From Microcaldota archaeon (GTDB lineage Archaea; Micrarchaeota; Micrarchaeia; Burarchaeales; JACRGF01): a stretch of DNA of 46,261 bases. A program made the translations under genes and the position numbers. The notes under the pieces are model-generated. The model saw only the letters and a program-made list of their open reading frames with translations. It was not told the DNA's origin and searched no databases. The stretch is from positions 1-46,261 of the forward strand of contig JACRGF010000037.1 of assembly GCA_016212395.1 (NCBI GenBank). Direction: 5' to 3'. Below are positions 1-25,488 of the stretch, one piece after another (the first letter of the stretch is position 1; every line of letters begins with the position of its first letter).

Positions 1-2319
1 GGAGTTCCAGCGAGTTATTACGCGTTCAGCTCAGTCACCAGCTCTTGGAACAACACTGTGCTCAACACTACGTTCGTCCGTTCCAAAATTTACAATGACG
101 CTACTTCCAACTTGACTGTCGCGTGGTACGCGCGGGCGCACGTTACAGGTAATAACGGTGGCAACTTGCAGAATGCGGACGTGAACGTTTCAGACGCGTT
201 GGGCAGGCGCGAGTTTTCAGGTCAGACGGACGCGAGCGGGTTGACTGCGTGGTTTGTTGTGAACGACTCTACACTCGGCTTTTCGCCTGTTTACTACAAC
301 AACAACAGTTTCAGCGCGAACAGGACGAACGAAGGCGCTATTTCTTCAGGCAGGAACATTTCTTCCACCCAGCAAGTGGAACTCGTGCTCCCGTGCGGGT
401 CGCTCGCGAACAGCTTGACTCTCTCAACCAACGTGAGCATTGCAACCACGTGCTTGGACTTTACAGCAGACTCTATCACTCTCGACTGCAACGGCTACTC
501 GATTGCAAGCAACGGCAACGGCGCTGGAGTAAACGCGACTGGAAGAAAAAACATCGTAATCAAAAACTGCAACATCAGAAACTTTACTGTTGGAGTAAAC
601 TTTACTAAAACGAATTACTCCGACATTCTCAACAACCAAGTTTGGAACAACTCGCTTTACGGAGTTTATTTCACTACCTCCAACTCTTCAAACATCACTT
701 CAAACAACGTTTACAACAATTCCGGCTACGGCGTTTACCTTGCATACTCGTCAAACAATAACACTATTTCCTCCAACAATATCTCTAACAATTCAAATAC
801 CGGCATTTGGATTTATTTATCTTCAGACAACAACACTATCTCTTCAAACAACATTTCCAACCACAGCGTGTACGGAATCTTGTCTTCATCCTCTCTCTAC
901 CTGAACGTTTCTTTAAACAGCATTTCAAACAATTCTTATGCTAACGTCTGGATTTATTCAAACAACAACTCTATTTCCAACAATAACGTTTCATTCTCAC
1001 CGCGCGGCATAGTGCTCGTCGGCCACAACAACACTGTCTTCTCCAACAATGTTTCCAACCATTCCGCTGTAGGCATTTTCTTCTCTTCAGGCAATGACAA
1101 CATAGTTTTCTTCAACATTCTGTCAAGCAATACTGGTTATGCAGTATGGCTTTCGACTTCAAGAAACAATTCCGTGTACTTAAACAATCTTTCCCGTGGT
1201 GGTGTCGGCGTATATGCTGGAGCGTCTGACTTAACCGCAATATACAACAATACTATCAACTTCAGCAGTGGCGACGCGATTAATTTCTACAACTCAAACT
1301 ACTCTCGCATATTCAACAATACGATCTATAACCTTTCTTCTGGTACTGGCATCAGCTTGCAGTATTCTAATAACGCGTCCATAACTGGCAATACTATTTA
1401 CAATACGTCCAACACTGGAGTCTATTTGGCTTACTCTTTGAACGCGAGCTTGTCTGCGAACAGGGTTTTGAACGAAACTGACGGCGTAATATTTATTTCA
1501 TCCAACGGCAGCATCCAAAATCCTGGATTGATTGAAGGCAATTCAGGATATTCTCTGTTGAGTACAAGCAGCAACGTTTCAGTTGACTCGAGCGACCTCG
1601 GAGTTTCAACACGCGGCAAGAGCTTGTTCGCGTGGTACGTGAACGCGTCTGTCTATAACTACACTGGCGAGCCTGCCGTGGGAGCAACTGTGAACGTGAC
1701 GAACGTTTCAGGGCACTTGGCATCGTACTCTAACACTCTTTTTACCGTAACTTCGTCTTTCACCACCGACTCGCAAGGCTACACTTCAAACTTCTACGTT
1801 TACGAAAACAAGACGAACAACGACAACACCGTCACTATCTACAACAACCACTCTTTCCGCGCGAACAAGACTGAAGGCGGTTACGGCACGAACAACACGA
1901 ACGTGACTGGAGTCTCGTATCCTTACACTATCCTCATTAATTTGAGCGCAACGTGCGGGCTCGTCGCGAACACGAGCGCAGTAAACTTCGGAACCCTCGC
2001 AGTCGGGCAAACCAGCTCGGAAGAAGCGCTCACCATAAACAATACCGGCACTGTAAGCAGTCAAGTGCAAATCTCGGGAACAAGCTGGACGAGCGGAAGC
2101 AACTCGTTCTCAGTCACTTCCTCTAAATTCCACAACACTACTTCCGGCGTTGCTTACGCGAGCAAGTACGCTCTCGAAAGCTCTAACTCGCTCGCCTACG
2201 TGCCACTCGCCCCGCTCAATATTTTCACTACCTACCTGCAAACATTAATTCCAGAAGGCCAAGAGACAGGCACTTACACGCAGACAATAACTTACACTGT
2301 CTCATGCCCGCCAACGTAA
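1..2319 (+). CDS. Beta-helix surface protein, 5' partial
   Basis: The reading frame is open from base 1, so the true start lies upstream; the GTG at 58 is internal. Seen in order: an Ig-like module (about 58-390, with GLTAWFVVNDSTLGFSPVYY), a right-handed parallel beta-helix (about 391-1600) opened by a cap with GAGVNATGRKNIVIKNC and built of 20-25-residue Asn/Ser-rich turns, a second Ig-like module (about 1615-1900) and a C-terminal beta-sandwich (about 1948-2316; SAVNFGTLAVGQTSSEEAL, resembling ASH/choice-of-anchor folds). The helix turns match the NosD/PbH1 type. N-X-S/T sequons are very dense, so heavy N-glycosylation is likely. The C-terminal domain recurs at the end of the next gene, marking the two as paralogues. 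A role as an exported surface or adhesion protein is inferred; no enzymatic motif is visible. Confidence 0.85.
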   Translation, partial: GVPASYYAFSSVTSSWNNTVLNTTFVRSKIYNDATSNLTVAWYARAHVTGNNGGNLQNADVNVSDALGRREFSGQTDASGLTAWFVVNDSTLGFSPVYYNNNSFSANRTNEGAISSGRNISSTQQVELVLPCGSLANSLTLSTNVSIATTCLDFTADSITLDCNGYSIASNGNGAGVNATGRKNIVIKNCNIRNFTVGVNFTKTNYSDILNNQVWNNSLYGVYFTTSNSSNITSNNVYNNSGYGVYLAYSSNNNTISSNNISNNSNTGIWIYLSSDNNTISSNNISNHSVYGILSSSSLYLNVSLNSISNNSYANVWIYSNNNSISNNNVSFSPRGIVLVGHNNTVFSNNVSNHSAVGIFFSSGNDNIVFFNILSSNTGYAVWLSTSRNNSVYLNNLSRGGVGVYAGASDLTAIYNNTINFSSGDAINFYNSNYSRIFNNTIYNLSSGTGISLQYSNNASITGNTIYNTSNTGVYLAYSLNASLSANRVLNETDGVIFISSNGSIQNPGLIEGNSGYSLLSTSSNVSVDSSDLGVSTRGKSLFAWYVNASVYNYTGEPAVGATVNVTNVSGHLASYSNTLFTVTSSFTTDSQGYTSNFYVYENKTNNDNTVTIYNNHSFRANKTEGGYGTNNTNVTGVSYPYTILINLSATCGLVANTSAVNFGTLAVGQTSSEEALTINNTGTVSSQVQISGTSWTSGSNSFSVTSSKFHNTTSGVAYASKYALESSNSLAYVPLAPLNIFTTYLQTLIPEGQETGTYTQTITYTVSCPPT

Positions 2320-2569: not shown

Positions 2570-5500
2570 ATGCTTGAACTGCGAACGCTTGAAAAAACGG
2601 TTTTGCTTTCCGCGTTCTTCTCCCTACTCTTTTTCATTTCTTTTTCAAGCGCGCAAGTCACGAACACTCTTCAAGTAGTAGGCTGCAATTCTACTCTCAC
2701 GCAAAACACTACTCTCTACTCGAACCTTTTCGCAACCCAAACGTGCTTCGTGATTGACGCGGACAACGTTACTCTCGACTGCGCTGGCTACAGCATTACC
2801 GGCAGGGGCGTTGGCTCGGGCGTGAACGCGACTGGAAGAAAAAACATTACCATAAAAAACTGCAACATTCGAAGCTTCCTCGTTGGAATAAACTTTACCA
2901 AGACGAACAACTCCCTCATCACGAACAACACTATTTTCAACTCGACTTACTGGGGCGTGTACGTGGATGTTTCAAACAATACCAACATTTCTTACAATAA
3001 CATTCACAACGCCAGCAAGACTGGTTCCGGAATTTCCTTGCGCTCTGTTATAGGCCAGACCAGCATTCAAGGCTCGTACGTTGCGTACAACAACATTTCA
3101 AACTCCAGCAGTTCAGGCATCTACATTTTTTACGCTTGGAACAATACGCTCGCTTTCAACAACTTCTACTCTAACAGAGGACACGGCGTGTACGTCGCGT
3201 CAGGGAGAGACCTCTACATTTACAACAATTCCTTCTACAACAACACGCTGGACGGAGTGCACCTGCAAACCATCGGAGGGTCGTACACTGTGTGGAACAT
3301 GTGGGTTTACAACAACAGCATTTTCAACAATTCAAAAGACGGCATTTGCCTGCTAGACGCGTTCAAAAGCGGTATCACTCAAAACAACATTTTCAACAAC
3401 TCCAAGATCGGCATCAACATGACGACCGCCTTTGACTGCAACGTTTCACTCAACCGCGTTTACAACAATTCAAGAAGTGGCGTTTACTCGTCTGGCTCAA
3501 ACTCTACTTTGTTTTTGAATAATTCTATCGAAGACAACCTGCAAGACGCGTTCTACTTCTCCAATTCCAACCACTCCACAATAACGAACTCTTCAATTTC
3601 CGGAGTTCCAGCGAGTTATTACGCGTTCAATTCTGCCTCCAACTCGTGGAACAACACTGTGCTCAACACTACGTTCGTCCGTTCCAAAATTTACAATGAC
3701 GCTACTTCCAACTTGACTGTCGCTTGGTACGCGCGCATCCACTATACAGACCGCGCTACTGGAGCGAACATAAACGCTGGCACTGCAACTGCTGTTGACG
3801 CTTACGGCTCGCAAGCGTTCACAGGCTCTACAGACGCGAGCGGCTTGACTGCGTGGTTCACAGTAAACGACACTACGTTCGGCTTTTCCCCGCGCTACTA
3901 CAACAACAACTCGTTCACTGCAAGCAAAACAGGCTACGGCTCGAGCTCGGCAAGCGCGAACGTTACTTACTCACAGCAAATAGAACTCTCATCAGGCTGC
4001 GGAGCGATTTCTTCAAGCACTACTCTCACTGGCAACGTTGAAGCAGCAGGCTCGTGCTTTGTGTTCAACGCTGACAGTATTACTCTCGACTGCGCTGGCT
4101 ACAATATTACCGGCGACGGGAACGGCGCGGGAGTGAACGCTACTGGCAGGAAAAACATTGTAATCAAAAACTGTGACATCCGAAACTTTACGATAGGCAT
4201 TAATTTCACGAAAACAAACTATTCCGACGTTCTGAACAACAGGATTTGGAATATTTCCGCTTATGGCATCTATCTCACAGTTTCAAACTCTTCAAACTTC
4301 ACTTCAAATACCATCTATAATATGAGCAGTGCTGGCAAAGGAATTTACGCTTGGGCATTTGCTTACAACAATTCTTTTTCTTTCAACAACATCAGCAACT
4401 TGTCAACAGGCATTTACCTCTTGGTAGACAATAATTCCATTTCATTCAACCATTTATTTCAAAACACTGAAGGAATCCACATTCAAGGCGGGAATGAAAA
4501 CCTTGTTTTCTCAAACAATGCTTCCAACAATTCAGACACCGGCATTTTCATTGACACTGGCTCGCATTGGAATACTCTTTCCAACAATACTGCTTCGCAC
4601 AATTTAGACGACGGCATTGCGCTGTCAGCATCAAACAACAACGTGCTTTCTTCAAACTTGGTTTTCAACAATTCGGATGACGGGTTTTACTTTTTGAGCA
4701 CTTCACACAACAATTCCTTTTCCTTCAACCGCGTGTTCAACAACTCGCATTACGGTGCGTACATCTCCACGTCTAATTACTCTTTTTTCCTGAACGATTC
4801 CTTTGAAGACAACCTGCAAGATGCGTTCTACTTCTACAAGTCCAACCACTCAAAAATAACGAACTGCTCGATTTCCAGAGTTCCAGCGAGTTATTACGCG
4901 TTCAATTCTGCCTCCAACTCGTGGAACAACACCATCCTCAACACTACTTTCGACTATGCCAAAATCAGCAACGACGCTACCTCCAACTTGACTGTCGCGT
5001 GGTATGCGCGCGTTCACGCTGTTGACAACAGCGGAAGCAATATTCAAAACGCGGATGTTAACGTTACTGACGCTCTCGGCACGCGTTTTCACTCAAGCCA
5101 GACGGACGCGAGCGGGTTGACTGCGTGGACTACTGTCAACGACACTATCTTCGGCTTTTCGCCTGTTTACTACAACAACAATAGTTTCAGTGCGAACAAG
5201 ACGGGCAACGGCCAAATTACGAAATCCTTGAACATCACTTCAACCCAGCAAGTAGAACTAGTGCTCCCCTGCGGTTCGCTCTCGAGCAGCACTACGCTTT
5301 CAACCAACGTGTCCTCCACAACCACGTGCTTCAACTTCGCAGCAGACTCTATCACTCTCGACTGCAACGGCTACGGCATTACTGGCAACGGGAACGGTGC
5401 GGGCGTGAATGCAACAGGCAGGAAGAATATAATTATCCGCAATTGCAACATCAGAAACTTTACTGTTGGAATTAATTTTACTAAAACGAATTACTCTGAC

Positions 5501-8107
5501 ATTGCGAACAACGTGGTTTGGAATAATTCGCTTTACGACATATTCTTCACTACTTCCAATTCTTCAAACATCACTTCAAACCGCATTTACAACGGTTCCC
5601 TTAACGGCATTTATTTCGTTTCTTCACACAATAACACTATTTCATCAAACAACATTTCAAACCGTTCTTCAAGCGGTATTTTCGCTACGCAGTCAAACAA
5701 CAACACGTTTTCTTTAAACAATGTTTCGTACAACACGATCGGAATTTACCTCCTGTCATCCAGCAATAATTCCATTCATTCAAACTCCGTGTTCAACAAT
5801 TCACAAGAGGGAATTAGTTTATGGTATTGCACTAATAATTCGGTTTACTCCAACACTGTCTTCAACAACACTGACCACGGCATTTACTTGTTTTCTTCCC
5901 CAGGCAATACTATCCACCACAATACTGTCTTTTCCCAGCTTCTCGCGCCTGGCAGCCCGCGTGGAATTTACATTTACACTTCCCACCGCAACCTCGTTTA
6001 CTCTAACAACGTTTCCAACAACACGTTCGGCATTGATGTTCATCAATCCAATTGGGTGAACGTTTCTTCAAACAACGTAAGCGTTCTCGGGTACTTAGGC
6101 TTGTCTTACTCCAACCACAGTTACGTGCATTCAAACATATTGTCAAAAAGCAGTTCTACTGGAGTGAACATAAACGATGCTTACAACAATTCTATTTTTT
6201 CAAACAACGTTTCAAACCGTTCCTACGGAATTTACGTCTACGGTTCTTTCAACAATTCTTTTTCCTTCAATAGAATTGTGAACAACACTCTCGACGCTTT
6301 TTACATTCAAAGTTCCAACGGAAACAATTTCACTAACGAGTCTATCGGAGACAATCAAAGGCAGTCGTTCTATTTCGCAAACTCGAATGGCTCGCACATC
6401 ACCAACTCCAGCATTTCAGGAGTCCCAAGCGGAAATTACGCGTTAAACTCCATTGAAGGCTCGAACAACAATATTGTCCTCAACACTACTTTCAACCGAA
6501 CAAAAATCTATAACGACGCTACTTCCAACATTACCCTCCAATGGTTCGTGCGCGTTCACGTTTCAAGAGGCTCGGCTTCAAGCCTTGAAGGCGCTGACGT
6601 GAACGTTTCAAACGCGTTGGGCACGCGCTTTTCTTCAAGCCAAACAGACTCGAGCGGCTTGACCGAGTGGTTCGTCGTGAACGACACTACGTTCGGCTTC
6701 TCACCCGTCTACTACAACAACAATTCGTTCACTGCCAACGAGACGAGCGCAGGCTTTGCCACGCGAAGCTTGAACATTACTTCAACCCAACAAATCGAAT
6801 TCAACTTCTGCGGAGGGCCAATATGGCAAGACACCACCCTACTGCACAACGTCTCGTTTTCAACAACGTGCTTTACAATCACTGCAGACTCTGCCACTCT
6901 CGACTGCAACGGGTACTCTATCAACGGCAATGGGAACGGTGCGGGCGTGAACGCTACCGGCAAAGTCAGCATTACAGTCAAAAACTGTGTTATCCAAAAC
7001 TTTACTACTGGCATAAACTTTACTTCAACCAACCACTCTGACGTGCTCAACAACACTCTCTACAACAACTCGCTTTACGGCATTTTCTTCACGAACTCGA
7101 ACTCGACAAACGTTTCCTTCAACACTGCCTACAACAACTCTGCTTACGGGGCATTCCTCAACTCGTCAATCAACATAACGCTCGTGAACAACACGCTCTT
7201 GCAAAACGAGCTCGCGAACGTTTTCTTAAGCGATTCTTTCTCAAACAAAGCATTCCAAAACAACTCCATCACGCGCAGCCGGAACGGCATTTTCGCGTTC
7301 AACTCCTCCCTTGACATTACAGACGGCAACATTATAGAAAACAATTCAAACTATTCTCTCTCCAGCCGCAGTTCTACTGTAATAGTGAATGCCACTCGAC
7401 TCGGAAACTCGTCCCTAGGAAAATCGCTTTTCGCGTGGCAAGTGCGCGTGTTCGTAAACAACTCCGCAGGCTCTGTAATCCAGAATGCGAACGTGAACGT
7501 CACTAATGTTACGCTGCACAAGGGCTCTTACAACTTTTCAGATTACACTGCACTCGCGCAAGACTTCAAGACTGACTCGAACGGCTTCACCGAGTACTTT
7601 TACGTTTACGACAACAGGACGAACAACGACTCGAGCATAACGCGCTTCAACAACCACTCGTTCTACGCGAACAAGACGAACACCGGAGAAGCTAATGCTT
7701 CACTCAACATTACCGGCACGACTGACGTTAACCTCACGCTCTTATCCACTTGCGGGTTGAGCTTCAACACTACGTCGATTGCTTTCGGAAGCGTGTACTT
7801 GGGAGAAGCGAGTTCAGAGCAAGCATTCCGCGTTACGCACGCAGGCTCTGTGCTTTCAAACATTTCAATCGCAGGCGCTGACTGGACGAGCGGAGGAAAC
7901 AGCTTCAGCGTTTCAAACACTCACTACTACAACGAAACCGGAGTGAGCTACGCTGGAAAAGACGTTTTAAGCGCTTCAAACACGCTTTACTACCGCAACT
8001 TGGCAGTGAGAGAATTCTTCGACACTGCCATCCAACTCGTGATTCCATCCAGCCAAGCAGTCGGAAGCTACACGCAATCCATCACGATAACAAACGCGTG
8101 CAACTAA
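2570..8107 (+). CDS. Giant beta-helix surface protein (1845 aa)
   Basis: An exported repeat protein, probably a surface adhesin or cell-envelope component (inference). The start is ATG 2570: it follows GAGAGGT and gives a clean signal peptide (MLELRTLEKTVLLSAFFSLL then SSAQ); a TTG 39 bases upstream would add 13 unlikely residues. Four beta-helix modules follow, beginning near nt 2680, 3990, 5260 and 6810. Each opens with a two-Cys cap (TTL..NV....CF...ADSITLDC) and GAGVNATGRKN, then runs of Asn-rich PbH1 turns. Each helix ends in an Ig-like module with KIYNDATSNLT and FGFSP.YYNNNSF. The C-terminal sandwich (about 7750-8100) matches the end of the preceding gene. No catalytic pocket is recognisable. 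N-X-S/T sequons are extremely frequent. Blocks are nearly identical to parts of both flanking beta-helix genes. Confidence 0.88.
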   Translation: MLELRTLEKTVLLSAFFSLLFFISFSSAQVTNTLQVVGCNSTLTQNTTLYSNLFATQTCFVIDADNVTLDCAGYSITGRGVGSGVNATGRKNITIKNCNIRSFLVGINFTKTNNSLITNNTIFNSTYWGVYVDVSNNTNISYNNIHNASKTGSGISLRSVIGQTSIQGSYVAYNNISNSSSSGIYIFYAWNNTLAFNNFYSNRGHGVYVASGRDLYIYNNSFYNNTLDGVHLQTIGGSYTVWNMWVYNNSIFNNSKDGICLLDAFKSGITQNNIFNNSKIGINMTTAFDCNVSLNRVYNNSRSGVYSSGSNSTLFLNNSIEDNLQDAFYFSNSNHSTITNSSISGVPASYYAFNSASNSWNNTVLNTTFVRSKIYNDATSNLTVAWYARIHYTDRATGANINAGTATAVDAYGSQAFTGSTDASGLTAWFTVNDTTFGFSPRYYNNNSFTASKTGYGSSSASANVTYSQQIELSSGCGAISSSTTLTGNVEAAGSCFVFNADSITLDCAGYNITGDGNGAGVNATGRKNIVIKNCDIRNFTIGINFTKTNYSDVLNNRIWNISAYGIYLTVSNSSNFTSNTIYNMSSAGKGIYAWAFAYNNSFSFNNISNLSTGIYLLVDNNSISFNHLFQNTEGIHIQGGNENLVFSNNASNNSDTGIFIDTGSHWNTLSNNTASHNLDDGIALSASNNNVLSSNLVFNNSDDGFYFLSTSHNNSFSFNRVFNNSHYGAYISTSNYSFFLNDSFEDNLQDAFYFYKSNHSKITNCSISRVPASYYAFNSASNSWNNTILNTTFDYAKISNDATSNLTVAWYARVHAVDNSGSNIQNADVNVTDALGTRFHSSQTDASGLTAWTTVNDTIFGFSPVYYNNNSFSANKTGNGQITKSLNITSTQQVELVLPCGSLSSSTTLSTNVSSTTTCFNFAADSITLDCNGYGITGNGNGAGVNATGRKNIIIRNCNIRNFTVGINFTKTNYSDIANNVVWNNSLYDIFFTTSNSSNITSNRIYNGSLNGIYFVSSHNNTISSNNISNRSSSGIFATQSNNNTFSLNNVSYNTIGIYLLSSSNNSIHSNSVFNNSQEGISLWYCTNNSVYSNTVFNNTDHGIYLFSSPGNTIHHNTVFSQLLAPGSPRGIYIYTSHRNLVYSNNVSNNTFGIDVHQSNWVNVSSNNVSVLGYLGLSYSNHSYVHSNILSKSSSTGVNINDAYNNSIFSNNVSNRSYGIYVYGSFNNSFSFNRIVNNTLDAFYIQSSNGNNFTNESIGDNQRQSFYFANSNGSHITNSSISGVPSGNYALNSIEGSNNNIVLNTTFNRTKIYNDATSNITLQWFVRVHVSRGSASSLEGADVNVSNALGTRFSSSQTDSSGLTEWFVVNDTTFGFSPVYYNNNSFTANETSAGFATRSLNITSTQQIEFNFCGGPIWQDTTLLHNVSFSTTCFTITADSATLDCNGYSINGNGNGAGVNATGKVSITVKNCVIQNFTTGINFTSTNHSDVLNNTLYNNSLYGIFFTNSNSTNVSFNTAYNNSAYGAFLNSSINITLVNNTLLQNELANVFLSDSFSNKAFQNNSITRSRNGIFAFNSSLDITDGNIIENNSNYSLSSRSSTVIVNATRLGNSSLGKSLFAWQVRVFVNNSAGSVIQNANVNVTNVTLHKGSYNFSDYTALAQDFKTDSNGFTEYFYVYDNRTNNDSSITRFNNHSFYANKTNTGEANASLNITGTTDVNLTLLSTCGLSFNTTSIAFGSVYLGEASSEQAFRVTHAGSVLSNISIAGADWTSGGNSFSVSNTHYYNETGVSYAGKDVLSASNTLYYRNLAVREFFDTAIQLVIPSSQAVGSYTQSITITNACN

Positions 8108-8186
8108 GCAAAAAAGACAAAAGTTAAAAACAACTGTTCGCAATCATGAATTGTAGCAAATATGTTTCGAAAGAGGTGTGTTTTCC

Positions 8187-11900: not shown

Positions 11901-14900
11901 GTGAACGTTTCTTCTAACAACATCACTTCAAACCCATTCGGAGGGCTGTTGTTGACATACTGCAACAACAGTTTTGTGCACTTCAACACGCTTTCGAGCA
12001 ACAGCTTAATGGGCTTAGAAGTAGGAAATTCTTACAATAACTCCGTGTTCTCCAACAACCTCTCAAGCAACACTCGCGGCTTGTACGTGGATTATTCATT
12101 CAACAATTCTTTTTACTTCAACAACATCACGAGCAGCACTTACGATGGCGTTTACATAATATATTCGAAAGGAAACAATTTCACTAACGAAACTCTCTCA
12201 AGCAACGGCTGGAGCGGGTTCTACTTCCAAAACTCAAATGACTCGCTCGTAGCAAACTCCAGCATTTCCGGAGTTCCAAGCGGTAAGTCTGCGTTCAACT
12301 CAACTACTGGCTCGAACAACAATACAGTCTTGAACACTACTTTCGACCGTTCCAAGATTTTCAACGACGCGACCAGCAACTTGACGCTCCAGTGGTATGT
12401 GCGAGTGCGCGTTCGCGAGTCCATCGGGCTTGCAGCAATCAACAATGCGAACGTTACAGCGCGCAACGCGTTCAACTCCGTAGCCTTTTCGGAAAACACT
12501 TCTTCAGACGGCATTACTCCCACGTGGCAAATCGTCAACGATTCGACTCTCGGCTTTTCGCCCAAGTACTACAACTACCACGCGATAACTTCCTTTACTG
12601 AAACAGCAACTTCCACTGCTTCGCGAAACATTTCCTCTACTGGCATTATAGACGTGTTCCTTGGAGGCGCAACGTGCGGCGTTCTTGCCACTAATGTTAC
12701 GCTCTCTGCAAACATTTCAGCAACAAGCACGTGCCTCTCCTTCACAAGCGACTTTCTTTCCCTCGATTGCAACAATCACACTATCACTGGCAACGGCATT
12801 GGAGCAGGAATAAACGCTTCAGGAAGAAAAAACGTTACGATCCAAAACTGCCGCATTCTCAACTTTACTACTGCAATCAACTTGACTGACTCGAACTATT
12901 CAATAATCCTTAACAACGAAGCGTACAATAATTCCAAAGACGGAATATCCCTGGTTCGCTCCAACTCTAACAATATTACTAACAACACTCTGCATGAAAA
13001 TTACGACAACGGCTTGCGCGTTCACGCGTCCACAAACAATTCCATTCAAGACAATACTGCGCGCAACAACTCGCTCGACGGCTTCACTATCGTAACTGGC
13101 TCTGAAAACAACACGCTCTCTTTCAACTTTGCCTACAACAATTCACAATCCGGAGTTTCAGTTTCATACCTCTCGCACAACAACACGCTAACCTTCAACA
13201 CTGCGTACAACAATTCCTTTGCGGGCTTCACGCTCGCCCAATCAAGTTCTACAAAACTCTTCAACAACACTGCGTACTCCAACACTGCAGACGGGTTCAG
13301 CTCAAGCGGTTCTTCAGACTTTACCAACTTTACTCAAAACTTTGCTTTCAACAACTCCCAGAACGGGTTTAAAGCAAGCCAGTCACGCAACAACTTGCTT
13401 TACAACAACACTGCCTACTACAATTCGTTAAGCGGAGCACTCGTCTCCCAATCATTGAACGCTTCACTCACACTCAACAACCTCACGAACAACACTCTAT
13501 ACGGGTTGAGCGTTTACTTAAGCTCGCACAACGCGACCATTACCAGCAACAACGCGAGCTACAACTCGCTTGAAGGAATGCGCTTCTACTCTTCAAGAGA
13601 CTGCGCGCTTTACGCGAACAACATTCACTTCAACGCGCTCAACGGAGTAATCGCAACTGCGAACAGCAAACTCTCTATTACAGACAATAATGAAATTCAA
13701 AACAATTCCCGCTACGGCCTCGCAAGCATTGACTCGAACATTACAGTAAATTCAACTCAATTGGAGGAAAACGCTTTAGGCAAATCACTTTTTGCTTGGA
13801 GCGTGAAAGCAGGGGTCATTGACTCGCTTGGAGATGTTGTGTTCGACTCCGGCGTAAGCGTTTCAGCAAGCGGAAGCGAGCCCAACTCTTACACCCCCAG
13901 TGATTACACTGCTGCAATGACTGGCTTAACTACGAACGTTCAAGGCTTTACGCCTATTTTCCTCGTCCGCCAAAATTATACTGCCAACGATTCCACTGCC
14001 TCCAACTACAACCCGCAAACGTTCACTGCCTCGAAAGGAACAGCAAGCGGAACAAACGTTACTCCAATAAACTATACTAACAACGAAACCGGCGTCTACA
14101 TCCAGTTCACGAGCAGCTTCTGCAACACGTGCTCCACTTGCGACTCTGCAGTAGACTCCCAGTGGAAGACCATCCAGCTTCAAGCAGACTTGTACAACCC
14201 AACAGGAACGTGCGTTGAATTCGGCGCGAGCAACGTTATCCTCGAGTGCAACGGGCACGCGATTTACGGCTTGAAAGTCGGCGATGGAGTGAAGGCTTCA
14301 AGCAAAAACAACGTTTCAATCCGCAACTGCGTCATCCACCACTTCGACTCTGGCATAAACTTCACTCAAACCACTAACTCGTTCATCATCAACAACACGC
14401 TCTACAACAACTCGCAAGGTGCAATCATTTCAACCTCTTCAACTGGCAACTTGCTTGAAAACAACACTGCCTTCAACTCAACGCGCGCAGGCTACAACGT
14501 TTCAACAGCCTCTACCTCAAACACTTTAAACAATAACACTGCGTACTACAACAACCAAGGCTTCTACCTCTCCTCTAATTCTCTCCTGCTTGAAAACAAT
14601 ACTGCGCGCAACAACACTGCAAACGGCTTTGCTGTCTACTCTTCATCTTCAACAATGCGCGGAAACACTGCGTTCAACAACACGCTTGGAATAGACTTGG
14701 CGTTCTCCTCCAACACGTTGCTCGCGAACAACACTGCCTACTATAATTTGGAAGGACTCCGCCTCTCTTACTCTACTTACAACACGATTGCAAACAATTC
14801 ATTCTACAACAACTCGCAGAAAGGCATTTCGCTTTACTCAACTGAAGGCAACATCAAGCCCACAGGCAACAACATCAACTCCAACTTGATTGAAAACAAC

Positions 14901-17576
14901 TCGCTCGGCGTTTACTTTGTTCTCTCTCTCCTCAACAACTTCAACTCGAACACTATAAACAACAACACGAACGGAGTGCTGTTCCTTGAAGCGCACAACA
15001 ACACCATCGACTTTACAACAATCTCCAACTCTGCAAACGCAATCATCTTCCAAACTTCAGACAACAACACTGTCGCAAACTCCACTATTACGAGCATTAC
15101 CGGCTACGCATTCCACTCATCCTCTTCAGACCCGCGATTCACGCTCTCAAACACTGCACTCAACACTTCCTTCGAATCAGGCAGGGTTTCAGTTGACTCG
15201 CGCACGCAGTTGTACGTAAAATGGTTCGTGCGCGCACTCGTGCTCAACTCTGCAGGCATGACGCCCATTTCAGGAGCAACTGCAACAGTGAAAAACAACG
15301 GTGGAGGCACTATCGCAACAAGCACTACTGACTCCGACGGCTACACTATTTGGAACACTGTCACTGACTCTATCTACCGAGGCACTGGAAACTCTTACTA
15401 CAACAACCACTCGCTCACAGGCTCGCTTGGCGCAGACTCTGCAACTGTCTCGAAAAACGTTTCTTCAAGCATGACTGTAAACATTCCAATAGGCGCAGTC
15501 TCGTGCGGAACGCTCACTACTAACGCGATGCTCAACAGCGACATTTCTGCAACAAGCACGTGCTTCACGCTCGCAGCAGACAATATAATTCTCGACTGCA
15601 ACGGTCGCACTATCACCCGCGTTTCAGGCTCTGGAAGTTTCAACGGAATACAAGCTCTCAACCTGCGCAACATTACCATTCGCAATTGTATCGTCAGAAA
15701 CTTCACGAACGGCATTTACCTTGAAAACACGAACCTATCCACGCTCTACAGAAACACTGCGCAAAATAACACGCACGGCTTCAACTTGTCATCATCAAGC
15801 AACAACTCCATCCTCGAAAACATTCTCGTGAACAACTCGCACACTGGCGTAACCCTCCACTTGCAATCCTCAAACAACACTGTCGAAAACAATACTGCAC
15901 GCGACCACACGCAAGTCACTGCTGGAATAGACAGCGGCGTAGGCATTTACGCAGCTTCTCCATTCAACTTCATCCGCAACAACTCGCTCAAAAACAACGT
16001 TGAAGGCATTTACTCCAGAGCAAACAACAACACTTTCTCCTTCAACTACGTGAACAACTGCTCCAACGGCATTCGCGTTACAGGACACAACAACACGCTC
16101 TACAACAACACTATCCTCAACTCTTCAAGCAACGGCGTTTTCTTTAAAGGCGCGAAAGACAACCTGCTCGTAAACTCGACGATAAACAACTCGCTTTCGA
16201 ACGACGTAAAATCAACCGACTACTCGAACAACACTGCGTTGAACAACAGCCTGAACCGCGCCACGTTTATAACAATGTTGGGCGCTTTGCCTCCGTACAA
16301 GATAAACAACGACGCGACTTCAAACCTCACTCTCCAATGGCTTGTTCAAATAAACGCGACTGACTTGTCGAACGCTCCATTGGAAGGCGCGCAAGCGCGC
16401 GCGTGGGACAAGAACAACAACCTGCTAATTTCAACAACAAGCGTCTCGAACGGCTTGACGCCGTGGTTCACAGTCACTGACGCTATCCTCACAAGCTCGT
16501 CCGCCACCACCATCAACTACAACAACCACACTTTGAACGCTTCAGCAAGCAACACTATTTCCGTGCAGTCCTCGAAAAATATTTCTTCAACACAGCGCGT
16601 TCAACTGCAAGTGCCAGTCGCGCCTCTAGTAAGCATGCAAGTGCTCGTGAACGGAGTCGACACTTCGATTCTCGAGAACAGCGGCCAGCCTTACAACATC
16701 ACGATACGCTCGAACGGGTCAGGCTTGCGCGTGCTGTTCAACGAAACGAACGGCTACGTTCCATTCGCTTTGCCCCAATCAATTGACTCGAACGTGCGCA
16801 ACTACGCAGTCGCCGAGACGACTACTGGCGGTGGCAACGTGAGCTTTACAGTAATTCCAACAGGAGGCCAGTATGCTGACGCGAGCGCTGTAGGCGCTTA
16901 CAAAAACCAGTTGCGCATCTACTACTCGAACATTCTAATCTTCGAAAGAAACTATACTGTAACGAACAGAAACCTCCCGCTCACTTCAAGCGCGGTAAGC
17001 ATTCCAAACAGGCCCAACATTCTAAGCATCAACGACAACATCCTCCGCTTGTACGACCGCGTGAAAACTTGGAACGGAGGAGAAAATCACCCAATAACTA
17101 TTTACACTGACGGAACTTCTGCCGGAACAAGCTTCACCGTCGTTGCAGGCAAGCCTGCAGGCTTGAGCGTCACCGTCCGCACTCCGGGCGGAGCGCCAGT
17201 AAGCAACGCGCTCGTGCGCGTGATTGAAACGAACGGCTACCAGCCGTGGGCAATGACTCAAGTGACAAACTCGAACGTCACCAACTATGCTTTTGCCGAA
17301 GCAACCACGGCGTCGGACGGCAACGTCAGAATAACTATACTCCCGACAGGAGGAGTGCAAGGATTTGACTCGTTCGTCGGCGCGTACAAACTAAACATGA
17401 GCGTAACACTCGCAGACGGAACAAGAATTTACTCTGCAGACTTGACGAACTCGGACAGGCTCTTGCCAGAACCAAGCGGCACGAACGCTCCAACGTACAG
17501 CTGGAACAACGTGCGCGCTCTCAACGACGAAGTAATGAGAGTATACGACCGAGCGAAAGGATATTTATCTTCATAA
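8970..17576 (+). CDS. Giant multi-module beta-helix surface protein (2868 aa)
   Basis: Exported, probably a surface-exposed stalk or adhesin (inference). The signal peptide is residues 1-25 (ending AGFTTAQ). Five beta-helix modules open with the Cys-containing cap near residues 36, 550, 1235, 1723 and 2178; the first three carry GAG(V/I)NA(T/S)GRKN, and the fourth and fifth are divergent. Hundreds of residues of Asn-rich PbH1 turns (NNSIHSN, FNNT, GIYL patterns) follow each cap, separated by Ig-like modules with NDATSNLT. The C-terminus (about residues 2550-2868) lacks helix turns and holds two copies of a different module B: ETNGY.P(F/W)A, NYA.AE.TT, PTGG, GAYK, ending in LYDRVK / VYDRAK. 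One copy of module B also ends the next gene, while module C of the two upstream beta-helix genes is absent. Sequon density is extreme. No catalytic residues are recognisable. Confidence 0.88.
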   Translation: MKPTIKTAFLPALLILLLAGFTTAQVELGVTISTRCASLTSSSTLSSNVQAAGSCFVFNADSITLDCNGYNITGNGNGAGVNATGRKNIIIKNCGIRNFTVGINFTKTNYSDITNNRVWNNSWYGVMFTTSNSSNITSNNIYNSSSSGVYLSSSHNNSVSSNNVYNGSSNGISIFNSHNNSVSLNNISYNWVGLYVSASDNHSIHSNRVFNNSQEGISLWNSNTNNSVYSNTVFNNTDHGIYLFSSPDNTVHHNTVFSQTVAPGGQRGIYIYYSHRNLVYSNNVSNNTYGIEISYSNWANVSSNNLSVRGSLLLSYSNHSHVHSNIMSKSISYGIWSSDAYNNSIYSNNISNCSSGLYIFSSFNNSFSFNRVINSTEEGAYVYVSNGNNFTNDSLEDNQRHSFYFRNSNNSRVANASISGVPSGKYALNSTDGSHNNTVLNTTFDRIKIYNDATSNLTVAWFARVHFVDGNGANVDGGTVTVTDALGSQAYSGTTDSNGLTSWFTVNDTIFGFSPKYYNNTFTATKTGVGTATNSTNVTYSQQIELGIGGCRSLSNSVTLSSNVQAAGSCFVFNADSITLDCNGYNVTGNGIGAGVNATGRKNLVIRNCNIRNFTVGINFTKTNYSDITNNRVWNNSELGVYFTNSNSSNITSNNIHNNTVNAIWLSVSHDNSISGNNVSNHTSSSWSAILLRYSNSNSISSNFVYNNTRGLEVFRANNNTFSYNHVTNNSIGINVWDSNFTTVFSNNVSTNLIRGIRLESALYGNVSSNIVSNNSIAGIGVYSSSDNNTFSFNNVSRTTGWGGFEISGSHNNSFYSNSISNSSQYGIRMSTSHNNSLYFNSINASSIYGFYASQSHNNSIHSNNVSYNSNVGIYLTSSRNNSIHSNRVFNNSHEGITLGECTNNSVYSNTVFNNTDHGIYLFSSPDNKVYLNTVLSQSIVASSPRGIYVQSSPRNLVYANNVSGNVFGINIHQSNWVNVSSNNITSNPFGGLLLTYCNNSFVHFNTLSSNSLMGLEVGNSYNNSVFSNNLSSNTRGLYVDYSFNNSFYFNNITSSTYDGVYIIYSKGNNFTNETLSSNGWSGFYFQNSNDSLVANSSISGVPSGKSAFNSTTGSNNNTVLNTTFDRSKIFNDATSNLTLQWYVRVRVRESIGLAAINNANVTARNAFNSVAFSENTSSDGITPTWQIVNDSTLGFSPKYYNYHAITSFTETATSTASRNISSTGIIDVFLGGATCGVLATNVTLSANISATSTCLSFTSDFLSLDCNNHTITGNGIGAGINASGRKNVTIQNCRILNFTTAINLTDSNYSIILNNEAYNNSKDGISLVRSNSNNITNNTLHENYDNGLRVHASTNNSIQDNTARNNSLDGFTIVTGSENNTLSFNFAYNNSQSGVSVSYLSHNNTLTFNTAYNNSFAGFTLAQSSSTKLFNNTAYSNTADGFSSSGSSDFTNFTQNFAFNNSQNGFKASQSRNNLLYNNTAYYNSLSGALVSQSLNASLTLNNLTNNTLYGLSVYLSSHNATITSNNASYNSLEGMRFYSSRDCALYANNIHFNALNGVIATANSKLSITDNNEIQNNSRYGLASIDSNITVNSTQLEENALGKSLFAWSVKAGVIDSLGDVVFDSGVSVSASGSEPNSYTPSDYTAAMTGLTTNVQGFTPIFLVRQNYTANDSTASNYNPQTFTASKGTASGTNVTPINYTNNETGVYIQFTSSFCNTCSTCDSAVDSQWKTIQLQADLYNPTGTCVEFGASNVILECNGHAIYGLKVGDGVKASSKNNVSIRNCVIHHFDSGINFTQTTNSFIINNTLYNNSQGAIISTSSTGNLLENNTAFNSTRAGYNVSTASTSNTLNNNTAYYNNQGFYLSSNSLLLENNTARNNTANGFAVYSSSSTMRGNTAFNNTLGIDLAFSSNTLLANNTAYYNLEGLRLSYSTYNTIANNSFYNNSQKGISLYSTEGNIKPTGNNINSNLIENNSLGVYFVLSLLNNFNSNTINNNTNGVLFLEAHNNTIDFTTISNSANAIIFQTSDNNTVANSTITSITGYAFHSSSSDPRFTLSNTALNTSFESGRVSVDSRTQLYVKWFVRALVLNSAGMTPISGATATVKNNGGGTIATSTTDSDGYTIWNTVTDSIYRGTGNSYYNNHSLTGSLGADSATVSKNVSSSMTVNIPIGAVSCGTLTTNAMLNSDISATSTCFTLAADNIILDCNGRTITRVSGSGSFNGIQALNLRNITIRNCIVRNFTNGIYLENTNLSTLYRNTAQNNTHGFNLSSSSNNSILENILVNNSHTGVTLHLQSSNNTVENNTARDHTQVTAGIDSGVGIYAASPFNFIRNNSLKNNVEGIYSRANNNTFSFNYVNNCSNGIRVTGHNNTLYNNTILNSSSNGVFFKGAKDNLLVNSTINNSLSNDVKSTDYSNNTALNNSLNRATFITMLGALPPYKINNDATSNLTLQWLVQINATDLSNAPLEGAQARAWDKNNNLLISTTSVSNGLTPWFTVTDAILTSSSATTINYNNHTLNASASNTISVQSSKNISSTQRVQLQVPVAPLVSMQVLVNGVDTSILENSGQPYNITIRSNGSGLRVLFNETNGYVPFALPQSIDSNVRNYAVAETTTGGGNVSFTVIPTGGQYADASAVGAYKNQLRIYYSNILIFERNYTVTNRNLPLTSSAVSIPNRPNILSINDNILRLYDRVKTWNGGENHPITIYTDGTSAGTSFTVVAGKPAGLSVTVRTPGGAPVSNALVRVIETNGYQPWAMTQVTNSNVTNYAFAEATTASDGNVRITILPTGGVQGFDSFVGAYKLNMSVTLADGTRIYSADLTNSDRLLPEPSGTNAPTYSWNNVRALNDEVMRVYDRAKGYLSS

Positions 17577-17721: not shown

Positions 17722-19356
17722 GTGAAAATGTTTAAGCAAAACGTGGTGTTGTTGTCTGTGTTGTTGCTCTTTTCTTCCATTGTTTTCCCTACTTACTATA
17801 ACGCGAGCATTGTTCTTGATTCAGGCTCTCCGCAAAACGTTTCCTATTATTCTCCAGCGAACGCGTACGTGGATGGTGTTACAGGCACTCCGCAAGTGAA
17901 GCTCCGCGTTTACTCTGACACTCCGGGAACTCTCGCCGGAAAATACGCGACGTTCCTCTACCGTGCAGGCAATTCTTACAAAATAATTTCAGTCACGCCC
18001 ACCTCCAATTTCGCAGTGCTGGGCACTGAAAACCCTGTCGGCTCTGCAGTTTACTCAGAGTCACCGCTCAACCTTGACTTCAACTCTATTCTCGCAGCGT
18101 ACCCTGGAAAAGTTTTTGCAGTAATTTCTTCAGACGCGAGCGTTGACGTTGCGAGCGACGCGTTCGTCTATATTCCTGCAGAGAACGGCTGGCTGAAAGG
18201 CAGCTTCACCACTAACAACGTTCAAAACTCTTACAACCCGTCAACCCAAAAAGTCGCTGTTCGCGTTACAAGCGTTACAGGCACTACTGCAACCGGCACT
18301 GCAACTATCACTACTGATACTAACGCGTTCGCAATCGGAATTTGCTCTGACGCTTACGGAAACTCGTGCGTTGACTCAACGCTCACCGGCACTACTGTAG
18401 CAAACTTGAATACAGGCGTCTCGCCTTCAACAGCGCAAGCAACTCCGCAAACGCTCTACTATGTAGTAAACGGAATTGGAAGCTCTTTCTGCATTGGAAG
18501 CGACTTGACTGGCGCGGTTTCGCTCAACACTTCCTCCCCGCAAGACGGAGACTCGCTCGGCATAACCGTCACCATTTCAAACTCTGGCAACGTTGAAGCT
18601 GCAAGCAACTTTTACGTTTCAGTCTACTACGACTCTGTAACGCCTTCCAAGCTAATCAGCAGAACGAGCGTCACCGGGCCGATAGCTGCAGGCGCTTCAA
18701 AAACCGTTTCCTCCTCGTGGGACACTACGCTCCAGACAGGCGCGCACACTATAATTGCAGTCCTCGATGTTGACAGCACTGTCCCGGAATGCAGTGACGC
18801 GAACAACCCGGCAACTGCAAGCGTCACCGTGCAGACTGCTTACTACCTCACTCTATACATTGACGGGTTTCCAGCTCGCACGTTCCCGCAAGCAGGCAGG
18901 CCTTACAACGTCACGCTGCACGTGAACAACTCGCTCGGGCAAGACGCTGACAGTGCGGTAGTGCAACTCATCGAGAAGAACAGCTTGCTCACGAACGCGC
19001 CCACGCAAATTTGGACGGAGAACGGGCAAAAGAAAGGCGTAGTAACTTACGCGACAGTAGAAGTGACGACGAACGAAACAGGCAGGGTTTCGTTCACTTA
19101 CATTCCAACCGGCAACAAGCTGTACGACACGAACCCCACGCTCTACCAGTACATCGGCGCGCACTCGTTCACTGGAAAAGTGTTCGTAGGCGGAACGCTC
19201 AAGCGCACTGTTCCCCTCACGCTTCCACTGCAAACTCCTTCAACGCCAAACCAGCGTATTTACTCGCAAAGGCAGGAAAACGTGAGAGCGTCATTCGAGT
19301 TGATCAACAACCTGTTCACAACGCAAAAACGCTGGTACGGAAACTCGTCAACTTGA
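17722..19356 (+). CDS. Secreted CARDB-domain surface protein
   Basis: A 544-residue exported protein of unknown role. The start is probably GTG 17722, six bases after GAGGTG; ATG 17728 is a close alternative and keeps the signal peptide (MFKQNVVLLSVLLLFSSIVF). Residues of about 30-240 form module A, which recurs at the N-terminus of the next gene (a YPG...V.S.D pattern, then DAFVYI, then TITTDTNAF). Residues of about 255-370 match a CARDB adhesion domain (NSGNVEAASNFYVSVYYD, SSWDTTLQTGAHTIIAVLD). Residues of about 375-544 form module B, which the giant upstream gene carries twice (TYATVEVTTNETGRVSFTYI, PTG, YIGAH). The protein therefore links its two neighbours by shared modules. No membrane anchor is seen at the C-terminus. 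Confidence 0.83.
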   Translation: MKMFKQNVVLLSVLLLFSSIVFPTYYNASIVLDSGSPQNVSYYSPANAYVDGVTGTPQVKLRVYSDTPGTLAGKYATFLYRAGNSYKIISVTPTSNFAVLGTENPVGSAVYSESPLNLDFNSILAAYPGKVFAVISSDASVDVASDAFVYIPAENGWLKGSFTTNNVQNSYNPSTQKVAVRVTSVTGTTATGTATITTDTNAFAIGICSDAYGNSCVDSTLTGTTVANLNTGVSPSTAQATPQTLYYVVNGIGSSFCIGSDLTGAVSLNTSSPQDGDSLGITVTISNSGNVEAASNFYVSVYYDSVTPSKLISRTSVTGPIAAGASKTVSSSWDTTLQTGAHTIIAVLDVDSTVPECSDANNPATASVTVQTAYYLTLYIDGFPARTFPQAGRPYNVTLHVNNSLGQDADSAVVQLIEKNSLLTNAPTQIWTENGQKKGVVTYATVEVTTNETGRVSFTYIPTGNKLYDTNPTLYQYIGAHSFTGKVFVGGTLKRTVPLTLPLQTPSTPNQRIYSQRQENVRASFELINNLFTTQKRWYGNSST

Positions 19357-19389
19357 TTCAAACACATGAAACTTGAAACGGTGTAAAAA

Positions 19390-22323
19390 ATGAAACAAAC
19401 ACAACTTGACAAAACAACTGCAAAACAATTCAAAACCACCACAAACAAAACAATCGACAACACGAACACGTGTTGTCGAGCAGTCGACGATTTCGACTGC
19501 GGCCGAAATGTCGACAAGTCAACAGCAGTTGACTGTGTCGGCAACAAGCCGACTCAACTGCAAAACCAATTTACTTTTTTCCTCGCAACTTTATTGCTTT
19601 TCGCGAGTTTGAGTTTCGCGACTCCAATCGTTTCCCTCGTGAACGAAAACAATGCGTCAATGAACCTTTCGTACGACTCGACGCTCGCGAGCTACACTGA
19701 CTTGGGCGACACGAACGACAACGCGTTCGTGAAAATATGCAGTGCGAGCATCGGCCAATACGTCGGCCTCGCTTATTATTCTGCAGGCAGCTTCAAGCTG
19801 ATAAGCTTCAACATAGGCGGGCCGCTTGGAGAACTCGCCCCAATCTCTTCAGTTGGCGCGAACGGTTGTGCTGCAGTGGACGTTGACATTGCTTCTTACA
19901 CTGCATACTACCCAGGCATTCCTTATGTTGTAGTCTCGAACGACAACACTGACTCGAGCGACGACACGTTCGTCCAGATTTCAACAGACTATTCCAGCGG
20001 CTTCCTGCGCGGCGGTTTCACTTACACTAACTACAGCAACAGCACGCACTATTTCGTGACCGTAACTACTGCTTACACGAGCGACGGTGCAATCATCACT
20101 ACTGACGACGATTTCGTTGTTGTCGGGCTCATGAAAGGAGAGGACGGCACAGGCATTTCCTCAACAGTAACAAGCATTGGAGAAGAAGTCGCGCTCGCGA
20201 CGAACGGGTACGCGGGCAACATTACCATTCAAATAAACGGCATTCCGCCAATAGCGCTGGCTCAAGTCGGCTCAAGCGGCACGGTCACTCAACAGCCTCA
20301 ACTCCTGCTCGCTGTTGAAGGAGAATGCATTTACCAAACCACTACTATCACCGTCACGCATTCAGACGTTCAAACTCCGGCTTCCGGCGCGTTCGTCACC
20401 GCGAGCCTGGACGGCGAGCAAGTGGTCGGATTGCAAGCGGACGCGAACGGCCAAGTAAAATTCGTTGCGGAAACTGAAGGCATTTACGAATTGCGCGCTT
20501 CAGAAACCGGATACCAAAGCGCGTACTCTCCAATAAGCATTCTGCTTTGCACCCAGCCGTGCGAATCCAATTCCGACTGTGCGACTGGCGTGTGCCTTGA
20601 AAACAACGAGTGCGCGGAATGCGCGACGAACGGCCAGTGCGCGAGCGGATTGTGCGTCAACAACGCGTGCGTGCCGTGCATTGCAGACGAAGAATGTCTG
20701 ACTGGCAGGTGCGTTGAAGGCGCGTGCACTTCATGCTCTTACGACTACGAGTGTTCTGCAGGCGCGTGCGTGAACGGAAGGTGCGGCTCGTGCGTTTCAA
20801 GCAACGACTGCCCGACTGGATTATGCTTGAACGGCGTGTGCTCTTCATGCACTTCAAACTCACAATGCCCCACTGGCTTGTGCCAAAACGGCGCGTGCGT
20901 TCCATGCACTTCCTCGAGCGACTGCCCAAGCGGCTTGTGCGTTGACAATGCGTGCACCACTTGCTCTTCAAACGCTCAATGCAGTACGGGCTTGTGCCAA
21001 AACGGCGCGTGCGCTTCATGCGACTCCAACTCTGAATGCCAAAGCAACAGTTGCGTTGAAGGAACGTGCTCTCAATGCGAGTCAGACTCTGACTGCATGG
21101 ACGGCTTGTGCGTCGCAGGCGTGTGCGTCGAGTGCCTAATAGACGAGCAATGCGATTCAAACTTGTGCCAAGGCGGGTTATGCGCTTCATGCACTAGAAA
21201 CAGGGACTGCCTCACTAGACTATGCGAAGGAGGAGCGTGCGCAATATGCAAGGAAGCAGGCGAACCATGCTCTTTAAACGCGAACTGCTGTTCTTTCGAA
21301 TGCACTGAAGGAACGTGCGTTGCAGCAGACTGTGAAACAGACTTTGAATGCATTACGAACTACTGCAACCACGGCTCGTGCATGTCATGCCTCACGAACG
21401 AAGACTGCGCTCCAGGCGAGTGCTTGAACGGCGCGTGCATAGAATGCACTTCCTCAAGCAACTGCCCGACCAACTTGTGCTTGGGCGGGTTGTGCGCGAG
21501 CTGCGCGCGCAACAGCGACTGCCCCACTGGAATTTGCGTTGACGGCGCGTGCCAAGCGTGCATAGTTTCAGGAACAGAATGCTTAAGCAACGAAAACTGT
21601 TGTTCAAACTCTTGCACGAACGGCGCGTGCGCCACGTGCGTTCAAGACTCAGACTGCCCGTTCGGGTACTGCGACGCTGACACTGGCGCGTGCAAGTGCC
21701 GCGCAGGAGACGAGCTGTGCACCGGCGTGCTCGGAGCGCAGGCAAGCGAAAAACCCAACGTTGAAGAAAGGCGCGAGTCGCGAGAAACGCGCGCGCTCGG
21801 AGAAACAGGCAGGCCTGTTGCTTTCGCGTTGCCTCAAGTCCCGTCAACAAGCGGCTTGAATGGAGTAACCACCACTCCGCGCGCGTGCGAAGTAAAACCA
21901 TTCTGCACGAACAACGAAGACTGCTGCGGAGGCGCATGCATTTCCGGAAGCTGCACGTGCAGAATGCACGGCTGCCGTTCTACTGAAGAATGCTGTTCAG
22001 GCTACTGCTACGGAGGAGAATGCGTAAGCGCACCCAAAGCAATCCTCATCGCCGGAGTTGCCGCCATCCAACAGCCGAAAAGCGGGTGCGACGGATTGAT
22101 AGAAAACTGCAACTTCGCAGGATGCTTCGAACTATGCAACGGACTCTGGATACTCCTCGCAATAGTTTCTATAGTCGCGGCATACGTTTCGCTCAAAGAA
22201 GAATTCAAGCTCATCCCAATAATAATGGGCGTCATCCCAATAGCACTCGGAGTATTCACGTTCCCATTCGCAGGAATAATCATCGCACTCCTAGAAATAG
22301 CGTTCATCGCGTCGAAGAAATAA
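19390..22323 (+). CDS. Cys-rich repeat membrane protein with module A
   Basis: A 977-residue protein. ATG 19390 is the only workable start (GGTG just upstream); it leaves about 57 polar residues before the hydrophobic export segment (FTFFLATLLLFASLSFA, about residues 59-77), an unusually long lead. Residues of about 80-290 are module A, shared with the preceding gene. A small carboxypeptidase-regulatory-like sandwich follows (about 310-390). Then come 19 tandem units of about 19 residues (nt 20560-21700) of the form C..NSDCPTGLC.NGAC, two of them expanded with CC pairs. A charged linker and a second small Cys cluster (about 835-882) follow. The C-terminus has about three transmembrane helices (GLWILLAIVSIVAAYVSL; LIPIIMGVIPIALGVFTF; FAGIIIALLEIAFIA). 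A large disulfide-bonded extracellular stalk anchored at its C-terminus is inferred. Confidence 0.85.
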   Translation: MKQTQLDKTTAKQFKTTTNKTIDNTNTCCRAVDDFDCGRNVDKSTAVDCVGNKPTQLQNQFTFFLATLLLFASLSFATPIVSLVNENNASMNLSYDSTLASYTDLGDTNDNAFVKICSASIGQYVGLAYYSAGSFKLISFNIGGPLGELAPISSVGANGCAAVDVDIASYTAYYPGIPYVVVSNDNTDSSDDTFVQISTDYSSGFLRGGFTYTNYSNSTHYFVTVTTAYTSDGAIITTDDDFVVVGLMKGEDGTGISSTVTSIGEEVALATNGYAGNITIQINGIPPIALAQVGSSGTVTQQPQLLLAVEGECIYQTTTITVTHSDVQTPASGAFVTASLDGEQVVGLQADANGQVKFVAETEGIYELRASETGYQSAYSPISILLCTQPCESNSDCATGVCLENNECAECATNGQCASGLCVNNACVPCIADEECLTGRCVEGACTSCSYDYECSAGACVNGRCGSCVSSNDCPTGLCLNGVCSSCTSNSQCPTGLCQNGACVPCTSSSDCPSGLCVDNACTTCSSNAQCSTGLCQNGACASCDSNSECQSNSCVEGTCSQCESDSDCMDGLCVAGVCVECLIDEQCDSNLCQGGLCASCTRNRDCLTRLCEGGACAICKEAGEPCSLNANCCSFECTEGTCVAADCETDFECITNYCNHGSCMSCLTNEDCAPGECLNGACIECTSSSNCPTNLCLGGLCASCARNSDCPTGICVDGACQACIVSGTECLSNENCCSNSCTNGACATCVQDSDCPFGYCDADTGACKCRAGDELCTGVLGAQASEKPNVEERRESRETRALGETGRPVAFALPQVPSTSGLNGVTTTPRACEVKPFCTNNEDCCGGACISGSCTCRMHGCRSTEECCSGYCYGGECVSAPKAILIAGVAAIQQPKSGCDGLIENCNFAGCFELCNGLWILLAIVSIVAAYVSLKEEFKLIPIIMGVIPIALGVFTFPFAGIIIALLEIAFIASKK
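19396..19450 (-). repeat. Intergenic-type repeat, inverted, inside a CDS
   Basis: Read on the minus strand this stretch contains GGTTTTGAATTGTTTTGCAG followed by TTGTTTTG. The same string, with C for T at one position near the end, occurs at 2417-2444. Here the family member sits in inverted orientation and is translated as part of the long N-terminal lead of the Cys-rich protein. Confidence 0.55.
19454..19542. repeat. Three adjacent perfect hairpins
   Basis: Three inverted repeats follow each other without gaps of more than two bases. The first (19454-19479) has 11-bp arms TCGACAACACG/CGTGTTGTCGA with a 4-base loop. The second (19480-19500) has arms GCAGTCGA/TCGACTGC. The third (19502-19542) has outer arms GCCGA/TCGGC and inner arms AGTCAAC/GTTGACT around AGCA. 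They lie within the first 52 codons of the Cys-rich gene, ahead of the export segment. Confidence 0.75.
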
Positions 22324-25479: not shown

Positions 25480-25488
25480 GAGCAAAAT
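25469..25488. promoter_or_regulatory. Perfect 20-bp palindrome over argH start
   Basis: ATTTTGCTCATGAGCAAAAT is a perfect palindrome whose central CATG contains the argH start codon (minus strand, A at 25479). It lies about 55 bases from the divergent carA start. A site for an arginine-responsive regulator controlling both transcription units is plausible but not shown. Confidence 0.6.

Follow-up and report, generated by a model that had tools for sequence, protein, structure and literature searches.

Two adjacent gene sets of a Micrarchaeota archaeon probably encode separate surface-anchoring chassis with one shared type of head

The window, a stretch of 46,261 bp, is one whole contig (C26) of a 67-contig, 1.37-Mb assembly, and its positions 1-22323 are filled by six genes, all on the same strand. 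The remainder carries metabolic and information-processing genes, for example argH, carA, argF/pyrB, carB, iPGM and genes for exosome, SBDS and proteasome proteins. Right after the locus (23992-30774), argH, carA, a carbamoyltransferase gene and carB form a cluster, a group of arginine/pyrimidine genes in a small DPANN genome. An earlier reading made from the sequence only had described the six genes as a DPANN locus for modular surface proteins, some of them anchored, that have modules in common, and that description holds, with the organism placed in the Micrarchaeota by its relatives. Pfam identifies P0001, P0002 and P0004 as beta-helix proteins and finds CARDB in P0005; P0003 and P0006 have no Pfam match above the curated cut-off. 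System I (1-8789) consists of two giants ending in module C and the small membrane-anchored Ig-like protein P0003. System II (8970-22323) consists of three genes. Their products are a protein with two copies of module B at its end (B-B), a protein of the order A-CARDB-B, and a protein that has module A and, at its C-terminus, membrane helices. The features are as follows, with module coordinates approximate to about 10-20 residues.

1..2319, + strand: P0001 (system I), C-terminal part of a giant beta-helix/Ig protein (open reading frame, Beta_helix/NosD match)
1954..2316, + strand: module C, first copy, C-terminal in P0001, a CG...SC Ig-like domain (alignment; model pLDDT 84.9)
2570..8107, + strand: P0002 (system I), signal peptide, four beta-helix caps, Ig linkers, C-terminal module C
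5288..6735, + strand: head stretch of P0002, DNA match to P0004 9093-10540
7751..8104, + strand: module C, second copy, in P0002 (alignment)
8187..8789, + strand: P0003 (system I), signal peptide, one Ig/ASH-like domain, C-terminal TM, Lys-rich tail
8970..17576, + strand: P0004 (system II "display" protein), 2868 aa, five beta-helix caps, Ig linkers, C-terminal B-B
9093..10540, + strand: head stretch of P0004, DNA match to P0002 5288-6735
16602..17018, + strand: module B, first copy in P0004 (aa 2545-2683)
17094..17408, + strand: module B, second copy in P0004 (aa 2709-2813)
17722..19356, + strand: P0005 (system II connector), module A, CARDB, module B, C-terminal helix
17734..18393, + strand: module A of P0005
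18502..18816, + strand: CARDB domain of P0005 (Pfam PF07705, E 1.8e-13)
18847..19290, + strand: module B of P0005
19390..22323, + strand: P0006 (system II anchor), module A, Ig-like domain, 19 four-Cys repeats, C-terminal membrane helices
19561..20130, + strand: module A of P0006
20542..22029, + strand: Cys-repeat region of P0006, a variable middle where relatives have Ig-like domains instead
22138..22320, + strand: C-terminal hydrophobic (membrane) segment of P0006, kept in orthologs

P0001 lacks its 5' end, which falls beyond the edge of the contig. At the end of another contig of this genome, C65, lies an open beta-helix frame of 1490 aa, and the final 27 bases of C65 are identical to window positions 1-27, a 27-mer that is found also at position 3602. 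By elimination P0001 probably continues onto C65, a join that is likely, not proven. Contig C65 (L030) also encodes tandem small proteins (6591-7088, 7366-7716 and 7749-8330), at least one of them pilin-like (class III type) at its N-terminus GQAAMEYLMTYGWAILVIVVV, which adjoin a Cys-rich protein (8626-9654) whose repeats resemble those of P0006. At the other end of the locus, the frame of P0006 begins with about 55 non-hydrophobic residues (19390-19560) followed by a signal-like stretch, and its real start codon may be further downstream than 19390.

The two copies of module C that define system I (1954-2316 and 7751-8104) are 46% identical over 121 aa, as expected from the earlier assignment of this module to both giants, and the protein at 8187-8789 has the single Ig-like domain, signal peptide, C-terminal TM and Lys-rich tail of the anchored protein it had been taken for. 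In relatives a P0003-family gene is found directly downstream of module C genes. Of 296 Micrarchaeota genomes, 90 have module C and 77 have a member of the P0003 family, and 74 of these 77 also have module C (Fisher p 1e-49, kinship ignored). When both are on the same contig, the P0003-type gene starts no more than 300 nt downstream of the C gene in at least 57 of 68 cases. Typical loci in relatives encode a large protein that carries C at its C-terminus, together with a C-C protein or with one or two small proteins consisting of C alone, and a P0003-type anchor. Genes for a ParA-type ATPase and for another membrane protein are often there too; within the window there is no small C-only protein next to P0003. 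At one such locus (L106, 5743-7128), a single open frame fuses a ParA-type ATPase with a module C domain, parts expected on opposite membrane sides, and the fusion is possibly a lost stop or an assembly error.

Searches of Pfam/NCBIfam gave no family for module C, and for the P0003 family only weak sub-threshold ASH/Cep192 and fn3-like matches; a PDB sequence search with module C gave no match. Ig-type folds give pilin-like fold matches easily, and a fold search with the module C model found pilin-type Ig and PapD-like domains nearest (TM about 0.5-0.6), none at E 0.001 or better. The closest folds were the chaperone-usher pilins FimG, FimF, CsuE and Caf1 and PapD-like/ASH domains. A chaperone-usher pilin has an incomplete Ig fold that is completed by a donor strand. 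Module C is unlike these pilins in lacking a fold match at E ≤ 0.001, a sequence match and an usher, and Pfam/NCBIfam searches of P0001-P0006, module C and the P0003 family found no chaperone-usher pilin or PapD chaperone family.

The closest parallel for the gene set is the WxL clusters of Bacilli, which comprise a small WxL, a large WxL and a WxLIP protein (PMC10599100, PMC9772566). As in these WxL/WxLIP (Csc) clusters, system I has large proteins with one type of C-terminal domain and variable N-terminal heads and, encoded beside them, an Ig-like protein with a C-terminal TM, to which its relatives add small domain-only proteins. The WxL gene set is thus present in the relatives, while the window has two large proteins and the anchor and no small protein. 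System I differs in being archaeal and without peptidoglycan, and P0003 has one Ig-like domain instead of two. No WxL motif is conserved in the module C alignment, no Pfam WxL match was found among 18 module C members at E up to 1, and the P0003 family had no DUF916/DUF3324 match among the families listed at E up to 1. System I follows the gene-set logic of WxL and is not a WxL member by sequence.

The modules shared in system II, like module C, align far above chance. Residues 2-207 of P0005 match residues 56-247 of P0006 (blastp E 1e-11), in agreement with the module A first noted in 17722-19356 and 19390-22323. Profiles built from 14 P0005-type and 12 P0006-type N-termini each found every member of the other group (E ~1e-23 to 5e-6), aligned to one another at 99.7% in hhalign (E 2.7e-25), and gave 0 matches in 20 shuffles of each protein. 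The module B profile, built from P0005-type C-termini, confirmed two copies in 8970-17576 and one in 17722-19356; it found all 12 P0004-type proteins first tested, most of them twice, with no match in shuffled versions (20 each). A second B copy is detectable in 9/18 B proteins. Modules A and B show no relationship in hhalign (probability below 1%), neither has a family in Pfam/NCBIfam, and a PDB sequence search with P0005 returned a CARDB match only. The P0005 model, predicted like the other folds as a monomer, is a beta-sandwich chain ending in a 30-residue helix (pLDDT 80.6). A fold identity for this model was sought and dropped, the fold search giving generic tandem-Ig matches only (TM about 0.2).

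Orthologs of P0005 (26-35% identity) occur in few Micrarchaeota and also in Nanoarchaeota and Woesearchaeota. Any P0005 match was found in 12 of 301 Micrarchaeota genomes, and a full-length P0005 in 8 of 371 genomes of the Nanoarchaeota/Woesearchaeota phylum, where the triad count is 8-10. Over both groups the gene after A-CARDB-B is the A-anchor gene in 18/18 scorable loci, some adjacencies being unscorable in these fragmented assemblies, and the gene before it encodes a B protein in 17/21 loci. Six loci fetched after this rule had been stated obeyed it (6/6), and the exceptions, with the B protein away from P0005 in four genomes, all belong to one family (f11). On its fixed tail the B protein carries a varying N-terminal head, namely a short Ig-like domain, a beta-helix (the window and one relative, G025) or DUF285 repeats (L060). 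The A anchor likewise varies between fixed ends, with Ig-like domains, Cys repeats (19 in the window) or an alpha/beta-hydrolase (L060) in the middle. Constant ends with changing middles match the prediction of a connector system.

Several of the loci in relatives have further features. The Woesearchaeota B-type protein of L060 (1-9684) is at least 3227 aa long and has 23 stretches of DUF285, a family named from Mycoplasma. MoxR, DUF58 and vWA genes adjoin the triad in four Nanoarchaeota-side loci (L059 4167-7957, L131 243-3179, L133 13864-17352, L134 1442-5466) and are possibly an assembly chaperone set. In L051 (13391-17859), a gene for a T2SSE-type ATPase and one for a 731-aa membrane protein lie directly 3' of the triad.

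The sequence-only reading had the locus built by swapping end modules. In a tree of 38 module A sequences from two phyla, the copies split by gene position into groups of 20 and 18 (support 100/99), which shows one old duplication with no later swap. Module B copies also sort strongly by position, in a tree blurred by the short domains. DNA comparison shows no similarity for the A pair or the B pair, and together with the position-specific clades of module A this places the origin of the sharing of both modules in old duplications and not in swapping.

The beta-helix caps are common to P0001, P0002 and P0004, as had been noted, with 10 copies over these genes and 2 further copies on contig C65. 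The head stretch of P0002 in system I (5288-6735) and that of P0004 in system II (9093-10540) are 75.7% identical in DNA over 1455 columns, and P0001 and P0002 are 78% identical over 790 columns. Since the head units are still alike in DNA and the A and B pairs are not, the heads have moved recently over both chassis and the end modules are old. The trees of caps and Ig linkers show no sorting by gene, with most branches weak and a resolution too low to date individual exchanges; the exception is the last Ig before module C, which pairs P0001 with P0002 in the linker tree (99/97). Like NosD and other parallel beta-helix proteins, the heads match PF05048, PF13229 and TIGR03804 strongly. Unlike NosD, they form arrays as long as 2868 aa that include Ig linkers and have modules of their own at the C-terminus, and their scores with the NosD copper maturation model (NCBIfam TIGR04247) are 29.7, 113.8 and 185.9 bits, far short of its 300-bit cut-off. 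The three helix proteins (window 1-17576) contain 6-7 N-glycosylation sequons per 100 aa, compared with about 4 when shuffled, and Asn ladders of the beta-helix may explain part of the excess.

Among the triad genomes tested for module C, a whole-genome search that left out six Nanoarchaeota triad genomes, only the genome of the window has it. Module C with P0003 thus forms one set and the A/B triad another, which among the triad genomes tested meet in this one only, and the proposal of one co-evolving system is not supported. Independent inheritance in relatives is found between the two halves of the locus and not within either half. Very probably, on anatomy alone, the locus consists of two adjacent, separately inherited surface-anchoring chassis that share one type of head.

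We propose that in system I module C of the giant beta-helix proteins docks on P0003, encoded just downstream, and that through this docking the beta-helix would project from the cell in the way WxL/WxLIP clusters work. In system II, P0006 would be anchored through the membrane helices at its C-terminus and present module A. P0005 would be the connector, bound to P0006 through the A modules of both and to the B-B tail of P0004 through its own B, and P0004 would carry the variable head outward. Each chassis would have its membrane part and its display part encoded side by side, with the head at the N-terminus of the display part. Paralogous domains that keep the contact of an ancestral homo-oligomer would be the simplest reason why P0005 shares one domain with each neighbour. 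The A-A, B-B and C-P0003 contacts are predictions from sequence, those of P0005 with P0006 and P0004 being suggested by their common paralogous domains. The outward orientation and a role in adhesion or cell contact are putative, and host contact by a DPANN cell is plausible. Two independent anchoring chassis with the same kind of head, docking as proposed, form our best explanation as a whole, which we hold tentatively and at slightly less than an even chance.

An S-layer protein is an abundant surface protein that forms a two-dimensional lattice. The six genes, adjacent and on one strand, could encode a single S-layer-like envelope in which P0001, P0002 and P0004 are the coat and P0003, P0005 and P0006 its anchors, and the common head units of the three helix proteins and their dense sequons (6-7 per 100 aa vs about 4 shuffled) fit such a coat. 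We consider it unlikely, as the two sets are inherited apart among the relatives tested and the triad is rare (12/301 and 8-10/371 genomes), unlike an essential coat. Somewhat less likely again, both sets may support machinery for assembly or secretion, such as a type IV pilus or a MoxR/vWA-assisted complex, and not display as such. T2SSE, T2SSF, MoxR-DUF58-vWA and ParA-type genes are absent from the window, and in ten Micrarchaeota genomes that have the triad the T2SSE genes are located elsewhere, almost always on a different contig; in relatives, however, a T2SSE ATPase gene directly follows the triad in L051, a T2SSF gene is near it in L060, MoxR-DUF58-vWA genes adjoin it in L059, L131, L133 and L134, and ParA-type ATPase genes adjoin several module C loci. 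A general type IV pilus link was ruled out by the position of T2SSE in those ten genomes.

It is improbable that the locus is an ordinary mosaic, formed by shuffling of common Ig and beta-helix domains between otherwise unrelated secreted proteins and without a dedicated chassis, the adjacency being incidental. The head units are recent duplicates, and it is established that archaeal surface proteins commonly have beta-helix and Ig domains (cited in PMC5498576), both of which a mosaic would accommodate. The triad order kept over two phyla largely refutes it, and the position-specific module A clades and the C/P0003 linkage (p 1e-49, kinship ignored) also argue against it.

The two-chassis reading can be compared with surface proteins of other DPANN archaea. 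The cultured Micrarchaeota Mia14 has surface proteins with CARDB (PMC5498576), and very large modular surface proteins have been proposed for cell-cell contact in Mia14 and, as SPEARE, in Nanohaloarchaeota (PMC6642349). As far as the available portions of these papers go, the proteins are single ones with PKD/Kelch/YVTN or LamG/protease/restriction-enzyme domains, unlike the sets in the window, and neither the three-gene chain nor the C/P0003 set is described for them (PMC5498576, PMC6642349). The SPEARE domains (serine protease, LamG/adhesion, restriction endonuclease) have no Pfam match in P0001-P0006. No description of the triad or of the C/P0003 set was found in the literature searched, and both gene sets are without a name in the databases searched.

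To our knowledge, how DPANN cells hold their partners and what their envelopes consist of are largely unknown. Most candidates for holding a partner have so far been single giant proteins, and the two gene sets here have conserved domains without a Pfam name, a fixed order and variable heads. Modules A, B and C and P0003 are short, expressible domains with specific pairings open to test. The locus suggests a WxL type of surface organisation in archaea without peptidoglycan. As a speculation that we rate as rather unlikely in its full extent, DPANN archaea may have two or more display machines, as yet without a name, that work independently of peptidoglycan. These would be a WxL-like C-domain/anchored-Ig system in Micrarchaeota and a cross-phylum three-protein chain with homotypic A-A and B-B contacts, found beside MoxR-DUF58-vWA in four Nanoarchaeota-side loci, and they would carry interchangeable beta-helix, DUF285 or Ig heads for cell-cell contact.
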